Source: an uncultured Erysipelotrichaceae bacterium
GTDB taxonomy: Bacteria; Bacillota_I; Bacilli_A; Erysipelotrichales; Erysipelotrichaceae
NCBI GenBank assembly: GCA_947569705.1
Contig: CANOSP010000002.1
Location: forward strand, 1 to 64,000
DNA: 64,000 nucleotides
Direction: 5' to 3'
Shown here: positions 55,340 to 64,000 of the stretch, piece after piece
How positions within the stretch are numbered: position 1 is the stretch's first letter
Layout: the number at the start of each line of letters is the position of its first letter
Made by a program: the position numbers and the translations under genes
The notes under the pieces: generated by a model
What the model was told of the DNA's origin: nothing
The model's input: the letters and a program-made list of their open reading frames with translations, nothing else
Database searches by the model: none

Positions 55340-56258
55340 CTCAAGCCTTCTTTCATACCGTATTATTATATCATATTTTCCACATTTTTTGGGTATTTTA
55401 AGCAATATTTTAACACTTTTTTTACGGTGTTTTCCACATTGAATAACGCAGTCATAAAGCTGTATTATCGATTTAATAAGTAATTTATTCAAACACTTAT
55501 TTTCATAAAAAACGACGTGTTTCAACACGGCATTGTGATAATATAAAAGCTGCATGATGAAGCGATGTTGTGACTAATTCTATTATCGCAAATAGCAACA
55601 TTATTCTGACTGTTTTGATAGATTTCGACATTTTTCGTCATTATCCTATTGATTCCGACAGACATGCTTCAACAATTTTCTTGTTTATATCTGTTGTTTT
55701 TACTATTTTCGACAATATTCTCCATGAATCGCTATACACTGACAGTATCTTTCATTTTTCCCTATACATTGACATCATTTGCTAAAATAACTGTTTTATC
55801 GACAAATTTCAACAAGCTAATTCGCTGTTTCAGATAATTTTTTATCTTAAATAAAGTAATTAAGCTGAATAATTTTCTATTTTAGATAATTTAATGGTTT
55901 TAGAATAGAAATCGCTATCAAAAGACTTGCCCTTATATCATTATATTTTCTATTTATTTTTCTTTAATTTTGTTTAAATTCCATACAGATTTGCTATATC
56001 AGCAAATATTCAATAATTTCTACACTAAATATTTTCAAATATAGAAGATTTTATTCACAAGATATTTCACGTTATTTACCAATTATATAAATTATTTATA
56101 CTGATTTTTATATCTAAAACATACAGATTATCTAATTTAGATAATTTTTATCCTATATAAATATATAAAATATTAAAAATTTAAAAAAACTGATCAGCAT
56201 GTTATACCAATCAGCCTTTTCTTTTCATTCACATGTTACAGTTTTAACAAGATTCTTA
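55340..56258. other. AT-rich gap: candidate replication origin or origin remnant
   Basis: No gene. It contains a perfect DnaA box TTATTCACA (56051-56059), two TTTTCCACA variants (55376-55384, 55430-55438) and TTATCGACA (55796-55804). Spo0A-like TTCGNCA sites lie at 55624, 55634 (10 bp apart) and 55708, and there are long A/T runs near 55960-56180. It is next to rlbA-recF-gyrB-gyrA and within 11.7 kb of two parS sites. dnaA/dnaN are not adjacent, so the true origin may lie elsewhere. Confidence 0.45.
56183..56216 (-). terminator. Terminator of the exporter operon
   Basis: Minus strand: CTGAT (56210-56214) pairs with ATCAG (56190-56194), followed by seven Ts. The stem is short. Confidence 0.5.
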
Positions 56259-57962
56259 TTATTTCACTTCCTGACTTGCCTTTAATAAATCCGATATATG
56301 CTGTTTTCTGAACTGTCCGCTGTTCTTCCTTAAGCAGATTCTGTTAAGCAAATAAGGGATTAACAACAATACCGCAAAGATTAAAAAGACAGGGTGCATT
56401 TCAATCACAAAACATACGGCACAGCCACAGCTTGAAACTACACTGATCATTAACATACCGCGATTACTCAACCGCTGATATACATATCGTATTGAATCAC
56501 ACGGAACACCGTCATTAACTAAAATAATATTTGATGTTAAATGATATTTCCAGTTATTTTGAATCGTAATATAAATGAATATCATATAGAACAAATAAAT
56601 GATTCCGATCAATAACCACAGGATAATATCCTCTGCGGATCCCTGTTTTGAAAGCTCATATTTATCACTTAACATCGGATGGAACACTTCTATTCTTTGA
56701 TCATATAATTCATTAAACAGCTTTTCTAAATACGCTGAGTCACCTTTTAATTCATATTGAATCGTATTTATCTCATCATAATTATCAATTCGCTGCTTTA
56801 AATCATCGCTGCTGTAATAAGCCATCGCACGCGTATGTGCATCCTTTTCGGTTATGATCTCCCGTATTTCAAATGATATTTCATTTATCCATGTACCATG
56901 TACATAATTTAAACTAAACTGCTTCCCGATTAATTCTGTTTCACTCATACCGTATTGTCCCGCTAAGAACTGAGCCGTATTTTGATTGATGATAATGCCG
57001 CCGTCTTTTAATTTCTCTTTATCCTGCTCATGATGACTCGGCACAGCATTGATCGGGAAAGTATTCGTTCCGGTATCATAAGCTAAGAAGTTGATAATGG
57101 AATGACTGTCTTTCATCGTTCTTTCATACTCAGCCGGATCTTTGATATATAGGTATTCACTTTCATATAGATCATCATATACTTTCCATTGATACTGACG
57201 AATATTAATCAGTAACATAATAATTATCGCAAATGAAAACAATGAATATAAAAGTATAGTTTTACGACTTTGTTTTTTTAGTATTCTTTTCATTACGTTA
57301 TTTATTTCTGTTTGTTTTATTTCACTGTTTTTTACTTGAGAACTCAGAATATCTCCTTGATATTTAGATATTTCAATCATCTTCCCTTGTTTCATTTCCA
57401 ACAAGGTTGTCCGTTCTTTCATAATATGAGTTAAATCATGTGTCACTACGATGACTGTCGCAGTTTTGGCTTTTTCGTATAATAATTCCATAACTGCACT
57501 TGCGGATGCCTTATCTAACGCAGATGTAGGCTCATCGAACAAATATATATCTGCACGTCGGCACAACGCCTTTACGATCATAATACGTTGCTTTTGACCT
57601 TTGGATAATTCATTCGGATACTGGTGAATTAAATGATCGACCTTTAATGCTTTCATATATGCGGAAGGATCCTCAAATGAATCAGGATAAAACGCTGCAC
57701 ATGTTTTCAGATTCTCATCTACACTCATCGTATCCAGCAACTCATAATTTTGTAAAGCATATACAACTTGACTGTCTTCGGTTTCAATTTTTCCTTGATC
57801 GCATTGTTCATATCCGCATAAAATATTTAACAGTGTAGTTTTGCCGATTCCGCTTTTTCCGTATAACACATACATCCCGTTTGCGCTGAAATCATAGCTG
57901 ATATGATCTAGTATTGTTCTTCCGTTATAGCTTTTACTTATATCTGTGAGTTTACATTTCAT
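56259..57962 (-). CDS. Fused ATPase-permease ABC transporter (third member of the exporter cluster)
   Basis: A 567-residue half-transporter. The N-terminal ABC domain has Walker A YGKSGIGKTTLLN (residues 34-46), signature LSKGQKQR, Walker B IYLFDEPTSALDKA and the switch His in VVTHDLTH. A membrane helix near residue 235 is followed by an extracellular domain of about 200 residues and three helices near the C-terminus. The overall plan is MacB-like. It is only distantly similar to its two neighbours. It starts four bases after the A exporter and is co-transcribed with it and the small secreted protein. Confidence 0.8.
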   Translation of the reverse strand: MKCKLTDISKSYNGRTILDHISYDFSANGMYVLYGKSGIGKTTLLNILCGYEQCDQGKIETEDSQVVYALQNYELLDTMSVDENLKTCAAFYPDSFEDPSAYMKALKVDHLIHQYPNELSKGQKQRIMIVKALCRRADIYLFDEPTSALDKASASAVMELLYEKAKTATVIVVTHDLTHIMKERTTLLEMKQGKMIEISKYQGDILSSQVKNSEIKQTEINNVMKRILKKQSRKTILLYSLFSFAIIIMLLINIRQYQWKVYDDLYESEYLYIKDPAEYERTMKDSHSIINFLAYDTGTNTFPINAVPSHHEQDKEKLKDGGIIINQNTAQFLAGQYGMSETELIGKQFSLNYVHGTWINEISFEIREIITEKDAHTRAMAYYSSDDLKQRIDNYDEINTIQYELKGDSAYLEKLFNELYDQRIEVFHPMLSDKYELSKQGSAEDIILWLLIGIIYLFYMIFIYITIQNNWKYHLTSNIILVNDGVPCDSIRYVYQRLSNRGMLMISVVSSCGCAVCFVIEMHPVFLIFAVLLLIPYLLNRICLRKNSGQFRKQHISDLLKASQEVK

Positions 57963-57966
57963 CGCC

Positions 57967-60042
57967 TTAACCTCTCGTTAAATATTTCAAATAAAGTGTT
58001 GTTCCTATTTCATATATAACGACAACAAACAGGAAGCTGTATACAAAATGAATAAATGACCAATCCAAGACACTTCGATTCAATATTGACAGCGCTGCTT
58101 TGTTTAACAACGGAATACATCCCATCATTAATACAAATGATAGTAATCCTGTTATTATACACAGACATAAATTCACTATCGCCTCTACCTTTATCGGTGA
58201 ATAACCGCATTGTTTTATGATATGAGATTCTTTTTTCAGCTGTTTCTTAAAGAAGAAACGATGTAACATCAAGAATATAATTGTGATTATTAATAATACC
58301 GCGATAATCTGTTTCATCATTTTTTGATCTTGATTGATTTTTCCGCTCCACTCAATATATACGTTATCTTCTCCGTTAAAGATATGGTAGCTGTCTTTTA
58401 CCAAAGGACTGTTTTCGTTTAATTTTTCCATTATTGATTGAGTATCTTTTGTCGGATCGACTAAGAATTTTTCCTGTTGGACATATAGTTTGTTTACATC
58501 ATAATGGTGTATTTTCGCAACACTGCTTTGAAATGCATTCCGTTTAAAGTAGATACGATTTTCAAGTATATTCTCATACGATGTCACTCCCGATATAATG
58601 ACATGTAATTCTAAATCACGATCATCTCCCCAATCATCAGGTAAACTCTCAGAATCAAAACCTGAGCGCAAATTAAAAGATAATTTTTCACCGATAAGCT
58701 GATCTTTACTTTCAAAATCTAATGCTTTCATTAATGCTTCAGCTAAATCATTTCCGATTATTATTTCATGATCTTCTTTAGGATAATTACCGGCAATTAA
58801 AGGAATTTTCTCCGATTGTACCATTTCATAAGGAAATGCTCGCGGTGTGACGCCCAAAGATATGAATTTACTTGATAATTTTACAATTTCAACATATGTT
58901 GTTTCTGGACAAACAAAACCGGCAGTATCTTCATTCATAACTATTTGAAAAACATTAAAATATGAATTAAAACCATCTACTAATTGTTTTTTTATACTTA
59001 TTTCTTTTCCCTCTGATATTTCTTTTGCCATTTTTTCTGATTTTTCTATATCAATATGATTATAATTTATACTATCCCATACTAATGCATAAGCTATTAT
59101 GTCCTTGTTCTTTTCTACTACCTTATTCAAATATTCAAGATTAAATATATCAAAATCATAACAAAATTTAGATGTACCGAAATCATCAGTTGTTATTTCA
59201 CAATCATTTGGAAATGTATATATCAAATTCGTACTGTAATTCCACACATTATGTTTCTGTTTTTCTCCACCGGAGTCGGTGTAATAAATTCCTATATACG
59301 ACGCAAAACTAAAACAAAATAATAATATTATACTGATTATCATATTCAGTTTATGTGCCTTGATATATAATTTACATATTTGCTTTATATTTTTTATCTT
59401 TTCATGCTTTATTTTATTTATCTTCTCTGAATCTTCTGTCTTTTCTATTTCATTTTTTATCAATTCCAAACTTCGATGTTCTATACGATACGAAATATCT
59501 GCCACATCATCAAACAATGCCTCATCATGCGTTGTTATTACTACCGTTATTTCCTTGCTTAACTGTTTGATCATGTCACAGACGATAACCGCATTCTTTT
59601 GATCCAATGATGCACTCGGTTCATCCATTAATAATAAATCAGGCTCATTTAAAAGCGATCGCATTATTTGTACTCTGCGTTTCTCTCCGTTAGATAATTT
59701 CTTTACCTTTTGATTCTTTAACTCTATCATGTCAAACTTTTCTAATAAATGATCAATCTTTTCATTATCTAAATTCGCAAATAATAAATTATCATAAACA
59801 GATAGATTTTCAAATAATTCTATCTCTTGAAATAGATATTCTATTTTACGGTTATTCTCTATATTTCCTTCATAATCCTTATCTAATCCCGCAATGATTT
59901 GAAACAGCGTTGTTTTTCCGCTGCCGCTTTCTCCGTAGATCGTAATACAGCCATGATCCGGAAATGATAAATTCAAATTTTGAAATACACAGACCTCATT
60001 ATGTTTATTATGATAGGTTTTATTGATGTTCTTTATTTTCAT
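57967..60042 (-). CDS. MacB-like ABC exporter A beside the secreted peptide gene
   Basis: A 691-residue ATPase-permease. Walker A GESGSGKTT (37-45), signature LSNGE (116-120), Asp140-Glu141, His172. There is one membrane helix at about 233-252, then an extracellular domain of about 330 residues and three C-terminal helices. The last ~180 residues and the ATPase are nearly identical to exporter B, but the extracellular domain is clearly divergent. The start is ATG 60042 behind GGAGG, 54 bases after the small protein gene. Bacteriocin export or immunity is the likeliest job. Confidence 0.8.
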   Translation of the reverse strand: MKIKNINKTYHNKHNEVCVFQNLNLSFPDHGCITIYGESGSGKTTLFQIIAGLDKDYEGNIENNRKIEYLFQEIELFENLSVYDNLLFANLDNEKIDHLLEKFDMIELKNQKVKKLSNGEKRRVQIMRSLLNEPDLLLMDEPSASLDQKNAVIVCDMIKQLSKEITVVITTHDEALFDDVADISYRIEHRSLELIKNEIEKTEDSEKINKIKHEKIKNIKQICKLYIKAHKLNMIISIILLFCFSFASYIGIYYTDSGGEKQKHNVWNYSTNLIYTFPNDCEITTDDFGTSKFCYDFDIFNLEYLNKVVEKNKDIIAYALVWDSINYNHIDIEKSEKMAKEISEGKEISIKKQLVDGFNSYFNVFQIVMNEDTAGFVCPETTYVEIVKLSSKFISLGVTPRAFPYEMVQSEKIPLIAGNYPKEDHEIIIGNDLAEALMKALDFESKDQLIGEKLSFNLRSGFDSESLPDDWGDDRDLELHVIISGVTSYENILENRIYFKRNAFQSSVAKIHHYDVNKLYVQQEKFLVDPTKDTQSIMEKLNENSPLVKDSYHIFNGEDNVYIEWSGKINQDQKMMKQIIAVLLIITIIFLMLHRFFFKKQLKKESHIIKQCGYSPIKVEAIVNLCLCIITGLLSFVLMMGCIPLLNKAALSILNRSVLDWSFIHFVYSFLFVVVIYEIGTTLYLKYLTRG

Positions 60043-60071
60043 ATTATTATCCCTCCAATTTATATAAAGAT

Positions 60072-60091
60072 AGAGCGAACGTCTTCGCTCT
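60072..60091 (-). terminator. Hairpin between the secreted protein gene and exporter A
   Basis: AGAGCGAA (60072-60079) and TTCGCTCT (60084-60091), a perfect 8-bp stem with a 4-base loop, followed on the minus strand by ATCTTT rather than a full T run. It could act as a leaky terminator or an mRNA-stabilising hairpin, giving more of the secreted protein than exporter. Confidence 0.6.
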
Positions 60092-60096
60092 AATTT

Positions 60097-60504
60097 TTAA
60101 TATCTAACTGTAAAAGTATAGTTTACAATATAGCCTGCCATTTGTTTAGCAGGATAGAATGTGTATTTTACTGCAGTCGTACTGCCTGTATGATTAAATG
60201 TTTTATATGCAGAATCTGCATTTAATTCTCTAACGTTTCCGCTATTTGCCTTTATAGTACCATTATTTATCGTGACATTTATCCCTGCAGCTGAAACACT
60301 TCCAGGATTTTTTGCCTTTACAGTAAATGTTGTACCGGTTTTGGTAGAAGTGGTATATCTTTTAGAACCTTCAATAGTACAAGGTTCTCCGCCGCCACCC
60401 TCTATTGCTTGAGTGCTAATACCATCATTATTTGCCGAAGTAACTACACCTAAACACATTACGGATAATAATAAAGCTCCCATGCCTGTGAACAACTTTT
60501 TCAT
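60097..60504 (-). CDS. Small secreted Gly-rich protein, candidate bacteriocin or effector
   Basis: A 135-residue protein. Residues 1-24 are a Sec signal peptide (MKKLFTG, then LLLSVMCLGVVTSA). The mature start has an EGGGGEPC segment (residues 35-42) with one Cys. The rest is Thr/Ser/Gly/Asn-rich beta structure without a recognised domain, ending YIVNYTFTVRY. It is encoded between two exporters and shares their transcript and promoter type. ATG 60504 is chosen: GGGGG lies nine bases before it, and the GTG at 60513 overlaps that site. Lactococcin-972-like precursors have similar context and an EGG after the signal, but the Trp-rich core is absent. Confidence 0.75.
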   Translation of the reverse strand: MKKLFTGMGALLLSVMCLGVVTSANNDGISTQAIEGGGGEPCTIEGSKRYTTSTKTGTTFTVKAKNPGSVSAAGINVTINNGTIKANSGNVRELNADSAYKTFNHTGSTTAVKYTFYPAKQMAGYIVNYTFTVRY

Positions 60505-60525
60505 TGTTTTCACCCCCTTCCCATA

Positions 60526-60545
60526 TTAAGAAAGCGCTTTCTTAA
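60526..60545. promoter_or_regulatory. 20-bp palindromic operator P1 (cre-like)
   Basis: TTAAGAAAGCGCTTTCTTAA, a perfect palindrome covering the start region of the secreted-protein transcript. The AAAGCGCTTT core resembles CcpA cre and other LacI-family operators. Confidence 0.75.
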
Positions 60546-60549
60546 CTAT

Positions 60550-60577
60550 ATTTTAACATCAATATTCACAATGTCAA
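60550..60577 (-). promoter_or_regulatory. Promoter P1 of the secreted-protein operon
   Basis: Minus strand: TTGACA (60572-60577) and TAAAAT (60550-60555), 16-base spacer TTGTGAATATTGATGT. It is nearly identical to P2. Confidence 0.8.
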
Positions 60578-60639
60578 TAAAATACAAACAAATAATATTT
60601 AAAATGCTAAATTAATGAATATTATATACATAAATCTAA

Positions 60640-62742
60640 TCATTTTATGAAATATTTCAAGTAAAGTGTAGTTCCAATTTCATATATAACGACAACAAAC
60701 AGGAAGCTGTATACAAAATGAATAAATGACCAATCCAAGACACTTCGATTCAATATTGACAGCGCTGCTTTGTTTAACAACGGAATACATCCCATCATTA
60801 ATACAAATGATAGTAATCCTGTTATTATACACAGACATAAATTCACTATCGCCTCTACCTTTATCGGTGAATAACCGCATTGTTTTATGATATGAGATTC
60901 TTTTTTCAGCTGTTTCTTAAAGAAGAAACGATGTAACATCAAGAATATAATTGTGATTATTAATAATACCGCGATAATCTGTTTCATCATTTTTTGATCT
61001 TGATTGATTTTTCCGCTCCACTCGATATATACGTTATCTTCTCCGTTAAATATATGGTAGCTGTCTTTTACTAAAGGACTGTTTTCGTTTAATTTTTCCA
61101 TTATTGATTGAGTATCTTTTGACGGATCGACTAAGAATTTTTCTGCATGAAGTTTTACCTCATTCACATCATAATGATAAATATCAGCTATTGTACTTTG
61201 AAGTGCATTCCTTTTAAAATACATTCGATTTTCAAATACATTTTCATATGATGTGATTCCGGATACAGTAACATGTAAATGTAAATCTTTATTTCCCCAA
61301 CTATCAGGTAAATTCTTTATTAAATCATCATGATAATCACCGCCGGTATAAAAATCCAATTTAGTACCTATTAATTGTTCTTTATTCTCATATTCAAGTA
61401 CAGCCATTATATCTTCAGCGAAATCATTTCCGATTATTACTTCATGATCTTCCTTAGGATAATTACCGATTAAAAGTGGAATTTTTTCCGGTTGAACCAT
61501 TTCATAAGGAAATGCTCGTTGTGATTTGCCTTGTAATAATAATTTATTTGATAAATCTTTAATATTTAAATACGATATTTCAGGATGAATAAATGTAGCG
61601 TGATTACCATCTTCATTTTTAAATTCAATGATTTGAAATACATCATAATGAGAATAAAATGAATTTTTTAATTCTTCTATCTTACTGAAATCCTTACCGT
61701 TTTCCCTTTCTTTCCACATTTGATCCAAACTTTCATGATCTACTCCATGATATATTGCACTGTCCCATTCTAATGCATAGGCAACGACATTTTTATTTTT
61801 TTCTATTGTTTTATTCAAATGCTCAAGATTAAATAAATCATATTCATAACAAGTTACTGACTTGATAACATCTTGTACAATAATCTCACAATCATTCGGA
61901 AATGTATATATCAAATTTGTACTGTAATTCCACACATTATGTTTCTGTTTTTCACCGCTCGCATCGTTATAATAAAATCCTATATACGACGCAAAACTAA
62001 AACAGAATAATAATATTATACTGATTACCATATTCAATTTATGTGCCTTGATATACAATGCACTCATTTGAAAAATATTCTTTTTATCTATCTCTTTCTT
62101 TTTTACCGATTCATGACCTTTACGATCGTGATCTAATTGAGATAAACTGTTTTCTTTTATTAACTCCAAACTTCGATGCTCAATACGATACGAAATATCT
62201 GCCACATCATCAAACAATGCCTCATCATGCGTTGTTATTACTACCGTTATTTCCTTGCTTAACTGTTTGATCATGTCACAGACGATAACCGCATTCTTTT
62301 GATCCAATGATGCACTCGGTTCATCCATTAATAATAAATCAGGCTCATTTAAAAGCGAGCGCATTATCTGTACTCTGCGTTTCTCTCCGTTTGATAATTT
62401 TTTTACCTTTTGATTCTTTAACTCGATCATGTCAAACTTTTCTAATAAATGATTGATCTTTTCATTATCTAAATTCGCAAATAATAAGTTATCGTAAACA
62501 GATAGATTTTCAAATAATTCTATCTCTTGGAATAAATATTCTATTTTATGGTTATTTTCTATAACACCTTCATAATCCTTATCTAATCCCGCAATGATTT
62601 GAAACAACGTTGTTTTCCCGCTGCCGCTTTCCCCGTAGATCGTAATACAGCCGTGATCAGGAAATGCTAAATTCAAATTTTGAAATACACAGACATCATT
62701 ATGCTTATTATGGTAGGTTTTATTAATGCCGATTAGTTTCAT
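60640..62742 (-). CDS. MacB-like ABC exporter B, paralogue of A
   Basis: A 700-residue ATPase-permease with the same layout as A: Walker A GESGSGKTTLFQ, LSNGEKRRVQ, LLLMDEPSASLD, TTHDEAL, one helix, an extracellular domain and three C-terminal helices. A 347-base DNA stretch in the 3' end is identical to exporter A (60677-61023 with 58007-58353). The extracellular domain has diverged, with insertions such as FYTGGDYHDDL. Start ATG 62742 is preferred by alignment with A and by GAGGG eight bases upstream. It has its own promoter P2. Confidence 0.8.
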   Translation of the reverse strand: MKLIGINKTYHNKHNDVCVFQNLNLAFPDHGCITIYGESGSGKTTLFQIIAGLDKDYEGVIENNHKIEYLFQEIELFENLSVYDNLLFANLDNEKINHLLEKFDMIELKNQKVKKLSNGEKRRVQIMRSLLNEPDLLLMDEPSASLDQKNAVIVCDMIKQLSKEITVVITTHDEALFDDVADISYRIEHRSLELIKENSLSQLDHDRKGHESVKKKEIDKKNIFQMSALYIKAHKLNMVISIILLFCFSFASYIGFYYNDASGEKQKHNVWNYSTNLIYTFPNDCEIIVQDVIKSVTCYEYDLFNLEHLNKTIEKNKNVVAYALEWDSAIYHGVDHESLDQMWKERENGKDFSKIEELKNSFYSHYDVFQIIEFKNEDGNHATFIHPEISYLNIKDLSNKLLLQGKSQRAFPYEMVQPEKIPLLIGNYPKEDHEVIIGNDFAEDIMAVLEYENKEQLIGTKLDFYTGGDYHDDLIKNLPDSWGNKDLHLHVTVSGITSYENVFENRMYFKRNALQSTIADIYHYDVNEVKLHAEKFLVDPSKDTQSIMEKLNENSPLVKDSYHIFNGEDNVYIEWSGKINQDQKMMKQIIAVLLIITIIFLMLHRFFFKKQLKKESHIIKQCGYSPIKVEAIVNLCLCIITGLLSFVLMMGCIPLLNKAALSILNRSVLDWSFIHFVYSFLFVVVIYEIGTTLYLKYFIK

Positions 62743-62832: not shown

Positions 62833-62842
62833 TAAGCGCTTA
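62833..62842. promoter_or_regulatory. Operator P2 (cre-like)
   Basis: TAAGCGCTTA, a 10-bp palindrome within TGTAAGCGCTTAAC, downstream of the P2 -10 box. The GCGCTT core matches the P1 operator. Confidence 0.6.
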
Positions 62843-62851
62843 ACTGATTTA

Positions 62852-62879
62852 ATTGTAACATAAATATTCATAATGTCAA
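62852..62879 (-). promoter_or_regulatory. Promoter P2 of exporter B
   Basis: Minus strand: TTGACA (62874-62879) and TACAAT (62852-62857), 16-base spacer TTATGAATATTTATGT, differing from the P1 spacer at only two positions. Confidence 0.8.
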
Positions 62880-63081
62880 TTTTTATTATCAATAAATATA
62901 TAATCAAAATCTTTTATAATAGATAATTAACTCATATAAGAAGAAAATACCGGATTTACATATGGAAATAAAATAAAAAAATCAAAAATTTTTTAGTAAT
63001 TTATCTTTTCGACGTGTAAATAAAAGATAGGGGAATTTTTTAAGCTGAATTATAGACAAACGAAAGGAGATGACAAAGTCT

Positions 63082-64000
63082 ATGAATAAAGTAAATGAAA
63101 TGATTGATCATAACGATCATAAAATCACCTATGATGAATATTGTAAAAGGATTTTATGTAACAAGCAGATATTGGCAAGAATTATTAAAGAGTGTGTTTC
63201 GGAGTTTCGCGATATTCCGTTAGCCGATATTCCCAATTACATGGAAAATGATCCGACAATGAATATTAATATCGAGAAGGCTGCCGATAAAATCTATGGA
63301 ATGAATACCGAGGATATATCTGTACACGGTGCCAAGATCATTTTTGATATTATTGTAGGTATCAGATTACCTGATTCACCCGAAAAAGAAAGCATCGGTT
63401 TAATTCTAAATATCGAAGCACAGGCAAGCAGTAATACACCCTACCCGTTATTAAACCGTGCAATTTATTACTGCAGTAGATTGCTGGCAAGACAAAAGAA
63501 TCGCCCTGACGGCTTCCAACATTCAGATTTTCAGAATCTAAAAAAAAGTCTATTCGATATGGATTGTGATGAATTCTAAGAAAGCAACTGAGGGAGTAAT
63601 GAATCAATATTCAATCAGTGAGAAATGTTTAAAAAGAGTGTATCATTTCGCTAAAGAAGAATATGATAAACTTACAATCATCATGATTTATCCCAACAGT
63701 AAATATGATGTGAATGATGATAACTATAGTTTAATGGAGATGTTACATATCTTGTTTAAAGCAAAAATGACGACACATGAGAAAAAGCGCCAATTAGAAA
63801 AAAACAATGGTATATTGATGACAAAGAAAACAGAACGGGAGGTTGAAGGTATGTGTAATTTGTCTCAGGTTTTTATTGAAGATGGATTTATTAAAGGACA
63901 AAGTAAGATTGTTCTTAATTTAATGAAAAAAACAAAACAAACAATTAATGAAGTAATGGACTCATTAGACATAGAAGAAATATATCGACCTAAAATTACA
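63082..64000 (+). pseudogene. Rpn/PD-(D/E)XK nuclease-family gene, frameshifted at an A8 run and cut by the window edge
   Basis: The first frame ends after about 166 residues at 63579 (ILARIIKECVSEFRDIP, LILNIEAQASSNTPYPLLNR, AIYYCSRLLARQK), the Rpn/transposase_31 core with the active-site IEAQ. After LKK at the eight-A run (63540-63547) the right continuation lies one base away: VYSIWIVMNSKKATEGVMNQ, then YDKLTIIMIYP and GMCNLSQVFIEDGFIKGQ, to the window end. Dropping one A would restore it. It may be a decayed gene, a phase-variable switch or rescued by slippage. These proteins move with genome rearrangement and nick DNA. Confidence 0.75.

Follow-up and report, generated by a model that had tools for sequence, protein, structure and literature searches.

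What does a small secreted protein do among three ABC transporter genes inserted beside a bacterial replication origin? A sequence-only reading of the 64,000-nucleotide stretch analysed here (the window) had proposed a bacteriocin-like or contact-effector locus protected by fused exporters. According to our analysis, there is roughly an even chance (about 0.5) that this is a bacteriocin-like competition locus, in which Sec would export the toxin and type VII ABC pairs would confer immunity.

Organization of the locus and its promoters

Gene order and promoters confirm the arrangement first described, a small secreted gene amid paralogous ATPase-permeases in two units. Open reading frames and sequence reading place ABC1, the small gene, ABC2 and ABC3 in this order on the minus strand of the window, with ABC1 as one predicted transcription unit and the other three genes as a second (Table 1). 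The locus as a whole is inserted between dnaN and recF, beside the replication origin; by sequence recognition, we take dnaN-dnaA to form one flank and an S4-like gene, recF, gyrB and gyrA the opposite one. PDDEXK_2-type (Rpn-like) transposase-family genes lie beside two ABC loci (window 63070-64000 and L024:10671-11684), the window copy being in two frames and the copy on contig C5 of the same genome in one open frame.

Table 1. Features of the locus, in window positions.
Feature	Position	Strand	Remarks
ABC1, fused ATPase (N) and MacB/FtsX-like permease (C), 700 aa from ATG	60640..62742	-	own promoter, no small gene directly upstream
ABC1 ectodomain, about residues 257-588, TM1 to TM2	60979..61974	-	hydropathy/comparison
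Small secreted protein, 135 aa, ATG, Shine-Dalgarno GGGGGTG	60097..60504	-	predicted all-beta mature domain
Sec signal peptide, about residues 1-24	60433..60504	-	sequence and hydropathy
ABC2, fused ATPase-permease, 691 aa	57967..60042	-	
ABC3, shorter fused ATPase-permease, 567 aa	56259..57962	-	conserved second half of pair
Promoter of small gene-ABC2-ABC3 unit, TTGACA-16-TAAAAT, extended -10	60550..60577	-	consensus match
Perfect 20-bp palindrome TTAAGAAAGCGCTTTCTTAA	60526..60545	.	just downstream of -10; cre/LacI-like operator candidate
Promoter of ABC1, TTGACA-16-TACAAT, extended -10	62852..62879	-	consensus match
Palindrome TAAGCGCTTA, cre-like	62833..62842	.	downstream of ABC1 -10
Hairpin, 9-bp stem, small gene stop to ABC2	60071..60092	-	probable read-through terminator or processing hairpin
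Intrinsic terminator-like hairpin and T run	56183..56221	-	operon end

The matching promoters claimed for the two units are real as consensus matches. Both carry an extended -10 TG, score 11/12 against the consensus and are in the region's top three, and the exact 17-mer TTGACATTRTGAATATT common to them occurs, without mismatch, at these two places only in the 64 kb. CG-centred palindromes follow both -10 boxes, and similar ones precede the small genes of the relatives G003, G005 and G006. Matches to the cre consensus (at least 12 of 14 positions) were present in 7/12 upstream regions of these loci versus 9/100 controls, a comparison in which some upstream regions spanned 150 bp instead of 120 and two are orthologues. 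From sequence, we infer a putative CcpA/LacI-type control of the locus. A hairpin with z of -3.39 or lower occupies 7/9 gaps between small and ABC genes; among other co-directional gaps 3/26 reach z -3, one of them likewise after a small gene of the same kind. In most relatives the hairpins between the two genes stand at the same place with unrelated sequence.

The ABC motifs reported for the three permeases were borne out: Walker A, signature (LSNGE or LSKGQ) and H-loop motifs are present in ABC1, ABC2 and ABC3, which match PF00005 with 88-100 bits. Hydropathy of the permeases gives one TM, a large ectodomain and further TMs, and together with the N-terminal ATPase this is the MacB/FtsX-type (type VII) layout. 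The fused permeases did not reach the cutoffs of the FtsX and MacB_PCD models (PF02687/PF12704), ABC1 and ABC2 scoring 8-12 bits to FtsX, which unfused relatives in G086 pass with 34.2 and 33.1 bits; nothing in Pfam/NCBIfam matched the permease domains above cutoff. No adaptor gene (MacA/YknX) was seen, and PADLOC returned generic ATPase matches. A third transporter exists as described; what had been called a diverged copy is ABC3, which forms the conserved, shorter half of the pair.

Identity between ABC1 and ABC2 reaches 94% over the ATPase and 99% over the C-terminus but is 59% in the ectodomain, a distance matched by that to G002 (58%). The diverged zone covers about residues 201-550, with dS of 0.5-1.7 there, 0.16-0.35 in the ATPase and 0-0.13 at the C-terminus. 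Judged from sequence, this mosaic suggests either that gene conversion has acted on the flanks while the ectodomains were kept distinct, or that ectodomains have been exchanged.

The small secreted protein

The N-terminus of the small protein, MKKLFTGMGALLLSVMCLGVVTSA|NND, reads in sequence and hydropathy as a typical Sec signal peptide, in line with the secretion proposed earlier. The label "Gly-rich" did not hold up, as there are 13 Gly in 111 mature residues and only the EGGGGE stretch stands out. There is no lipobox or anchor, and no sortase signal was seen. The protein belongs to no recognised family as judged from Pfam and NCBIfam, whose models it does not match; Acyl-CoA_dh_M and Beta_helix_3 (Pfam) were discarded with scores far below cutoff. 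A PDB sequence search gave nothing.

The structure model of the window protein is poor (mean pLDDT 60), with an all-beta mature domain predicted, while its G005 relative gave a confident all-beta model with pLDDT above 90 over the mature domain. Fold searches with both models returned no match with E under 0.001. For the G005 model they listed only common CUB, GOLD and carbohydrate-binding sandwiches, all with Z under 7; the predicted fold is a generic beta-sandwich. At the sequence level the window protein is weakly related to the other beta-sandwich proteins (10/1997 shuffles score as high), and hhalign against its relatives lent this kinship no support. We base it also on shared length, the same operon position and the strand order of the models, although the latter agreement is not independent, both models having been built from the same sequences. 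With dN/dS of 0.23-0.27, the relatives of the small gene evolve under purifying selection.

No clear match to a non-toxic surface or pilin-like family emerged, though Foldseek ranked Ena1C, a subunit of endospore appendages, first for the weak window model (E 1.8e-3), given which the protein may have a surface role. As a beta-sandwich it might be a surface or appendage subunit whose release or assembly is assisted by the ABC proteins. We consider this improbable: the confident G005 model does not prefer Ena, whose first row appears at rank 35 (E 0.047), no other appendage genes were seen, and Cys-rich proteins take the same place elsewhere.

The precursor had been called unlike lactococcin 972, and the Lactococcin_972 profile search agrees. 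PF09683/TIGR01653 matched neither the window protein nor six relatives in Pfam, and likewise in NCBIfam for those tested; TIGR01654 and PF07242 (DUF1430), which describe the Lcn972-associated membrane protein, had no match at E 10 among seven permease domains. PF09683 occurs in 1/196 genomes of the family, which is not the window's own. The best NCBIfam model for the ATPases, TIGR03608 (Lcn972 ABC ATPase), gave 118.5, 120 and 126.5 bits, about half its cutoff of 254.85 bits. In the lactococcin-972-type locus of G080, taken as a control, the ATPase reaches 248.6 bits, just under the cutoff, and the membrane protein matches TIGR01654 and DUF1430; this locus (L110:6651-7772, contig C101) is true but short, with a DUF1430-like protein and an ATPase. 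Family membership was therefore rejected, PF09683, TIGR01654 and DUF1430 being absent and TIGR03608 at half its cutoff. The small protein does share the family trait of a Sec signal peptide on a small, secreted, beta-rich protein, which is not specific. The Lcn972 structure 2LGN was absent among the fold matches listed. Mature Lcn972 has 66 aa, the mature window protein about 111.

Related loci and the content of the small-gene slot

The fused ABC pair was found in 16/196 genomes of the same family (E 1e-50 or better), and a permease-only profile in 14/392 genomes of the phylum, 13 of these 14 in the same taxonomic order. The window's own genome (G000) holds two further pairs, on contigs C1 and C5. 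ABC1 had no match in plasmids, and an ABC alignment against genome contigs was swamped by generic ABC ATPases, with two weak permease matches among 80 loci. Close relatives of the small protein were absent from the genome-contig collection and plasmids, and those of its G005 relative from viral contigs.

The expectation that a small secreted protein recurs beside the fused pair was borne out. Such a gene lies directly upstream of the long ABC gene in 10/27 loci versus 6/199 control genes (Fisher p 5.5e-7, a guide only, as close-relative loci are included; the set of 27 was fixed after the table had been seen and excludes the split gene of G003 as well as those permease matches that were weakest). 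The remaining 17/27 loci have no intact small gene scored directly upstream, some of them being contig ends, remnants or larger gaps. Homologues that commonly occur without the transporters, which the sequence-only reading had named as evidence against itself, were not encountered: every clear homologue found shares its locus with these ABC genes.

What fills the slot differs by genus. In the window genus it is the beta-sandwich protein, with a related secreted protein of 134-141 aa in the same locus of G000-C1, G002, G003, G005 and G006; in other genera it is an unrelated, Cys-rich secreted protein (G075, G078, G086, G114, G139, G180 and G184). One of the Cys-rich loci (G086:C12, L107:4895-10193) has unfused FtsX/MacB-type permeases and an ATPase, a 62-aa secreted peptide and a divergent gene of 408 aa, in the size range of regulators; it represents an unfused version of the system. 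In G002:C20 the small gene survives as a remnant immediately before an intact ABC gene, and in G003 an intact small gene accompanies a split long ABC gene. The dnaN-recF locus of G002 and G005 contains one ABC pair only and no small gene; that of G006 is broken at the ABC repeat onto two contigs, at the place where a small gene could lie. Between the small gene and the ABC pair of G000:C1 (L023:6982-7724) lie a 67-aa TM protein and a 179-aa membrane-anchored protein, both kept in G006; the latter had no family match above cutoff.

These ABC pairs could form a resistance module that detoxifies foreign antimicrobial peptides like BceAB, VraFG and YknYZ, with the small protein as an accessory that binds or presents peptides. 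The MacB/FtsX-type topology, the peptide resistance conferred by relatives of this class (PMC5985334), the loci that have the pair and no small gene, and the dnaN-recF orthologue retained by G002 and G005 agree with this. We nevertheless regard it as unlikely, because unrelated secreted proteins occupy the same slot, the small protein has no lipobox or anchor, and no BceRS-type two-component genes were recognised in the loci read, where RRNPP-type regulators occur in several relatives instead.

XRE-TPR (RRNPP-type) regulators are adjacent in several relative loci, together with secreted peptides of 60-66 aa, and the small protein might thus be the pheromone precursor or ligand of such regulators, exported or processed by the ABC pair. 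This seems very improbable for a folded domain (G005) far larger than known RRNPP pheromones; the separate peptides fit the role better, and the window locus has no adjacent quorum-type regulator. Secreted, Cys-containing peptides of 61-67 aa beside XRE-TPR or TPR genes (L068:4608-4808, L070:4763-4960, L072:1449-1652 and L106:8101-8286) are possible pheromone precursors.

Some 4 kb from another fused ABC pair, contig C5 (L024:12234-13144), like G006:C101 (L060:1981-2891), encodes a secreted protein of 235 aa whose hydrophobic segment, GGISAFLPGIGTAIAAGIGLGAG, resembles a glycine zipper; a small TM protein comes next. The sequences make the two a candidate pore-forming bacteriocin with its immunity protein.

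A proposed bacteriocin-like locus and its known counterparts

The reading as a bacteriocin-like locus draws on the small secreted gene recurring upstream of the long ABC gene, on a slot filled by two unrelated secreted families, on the Cys-rich locus whose permeases and ATPase are unfused, and on the loss of the small gene beside an intact ABC gene. It draws further on ectodomains that diverge between homogenised flanks, on the hairpins in the small-to-ABC gaps, on the XRE-TPR regulators of several relatives, and on the purifying selection on the small-gene relatives. Counted against it are the weak kinship of the window protein, its poor model, the generic fold, the 17/27 loci without a scored gene and the lack of an adjacent quorum-type regulator in the window. 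Partner loss fits a sensor or accessory protein too.

We posit that the 135-aa precursor would be exported by Sec, lose its signal peptide and fold into a small beta-sandwich acting on the envelope of related cells. In the membrane of the producer, a long and a short fused MacB/FtsX-type ABC half-transporter would pair, and the long ectodomain would recognise the cognate small protein and keep it off its target. With the hairpin after the small gene, toxin production would exceed that of the ABC pair. ABC1, which has a separate copy of the promoter, would represent a second immunity allele that lost its small gene. Toxicity, target, immunity and this loss are what we infer. Immunity appears likelier than export, since a Sec signal is already present on the small protein and MacB-type transporters are thought to handle substrates outside the cytoplasmic membrane instead of moving them across it (PMC5985334). 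The exporter role proposed for the fused proteins is accordingly doubtful; the resemblance of the layout to lactococcin-972 loci stands.

More tentatively, the locus could define a new bacteriocin class, beta-sandwich proteins that leave by Sec and have a dedicated immunity pair of fused type VII ABC proteins. The ectodomains would be specificity modules kept distinct while recombination homogenises the rest, and the toxin slot would take unrelated secreted proteins. A putative immunity protein present twice in a single genome, in copies whose divergence is limited to the ectodomain, would offer a natural experiment on immunity specificity. The locus would also add an uncharacterised secreted-protein family and a search route for others, upstream of the fused ABC pair.

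Several known systems resemble parts of this locus. MacB, YknYZ, BceAB and AS-48H (type VII) likewise have an N-terminal ATPase fused to a permease and a large ectodomain between TM1 and TM2, and members of the class protect against antimicrobial peptides (PMC5985334); unlike them, the ABC pair here is coupled with a secreted small protein, without an adaptor gene seen. Bce-type modules may have a role in common with it, the sensing or removal of envelope-active peptides, but in them the ATPase is separate and the BceB permease long, whereas fused halves with few TMs are found here.

In the loci of Lcn972, streptococcin B and mediterrocin, membrane and ATPase genes likewise come after that of a small beta-sandwich protein secreted by Sec, and lactococcin-972-type strains without toxin keep the downstream genes (PMC11796350, PMC12345188), as do some loci here. 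The published loci differ in that ATPase and permease are fused here, in a tandem pair of a long and a short protein. What the ABC and membrane proteins do in lactococcin-972-type loci has yet to be proven (PMC11796350). Our best reading is that the window locus works like these loci, yet belongs to a different family. By analogy, the published system nearest to it is streptococcin B, a bacteriocin with a beta-sandwich fold that is believed to be exported by Sec, with presumed immunity genes, strains that lack the toxin and keep the rest, and a ComR-type regulator, ScbR (PMC11796350), comparable to the XRE-TPR regulators adjacent to the relatives described here.
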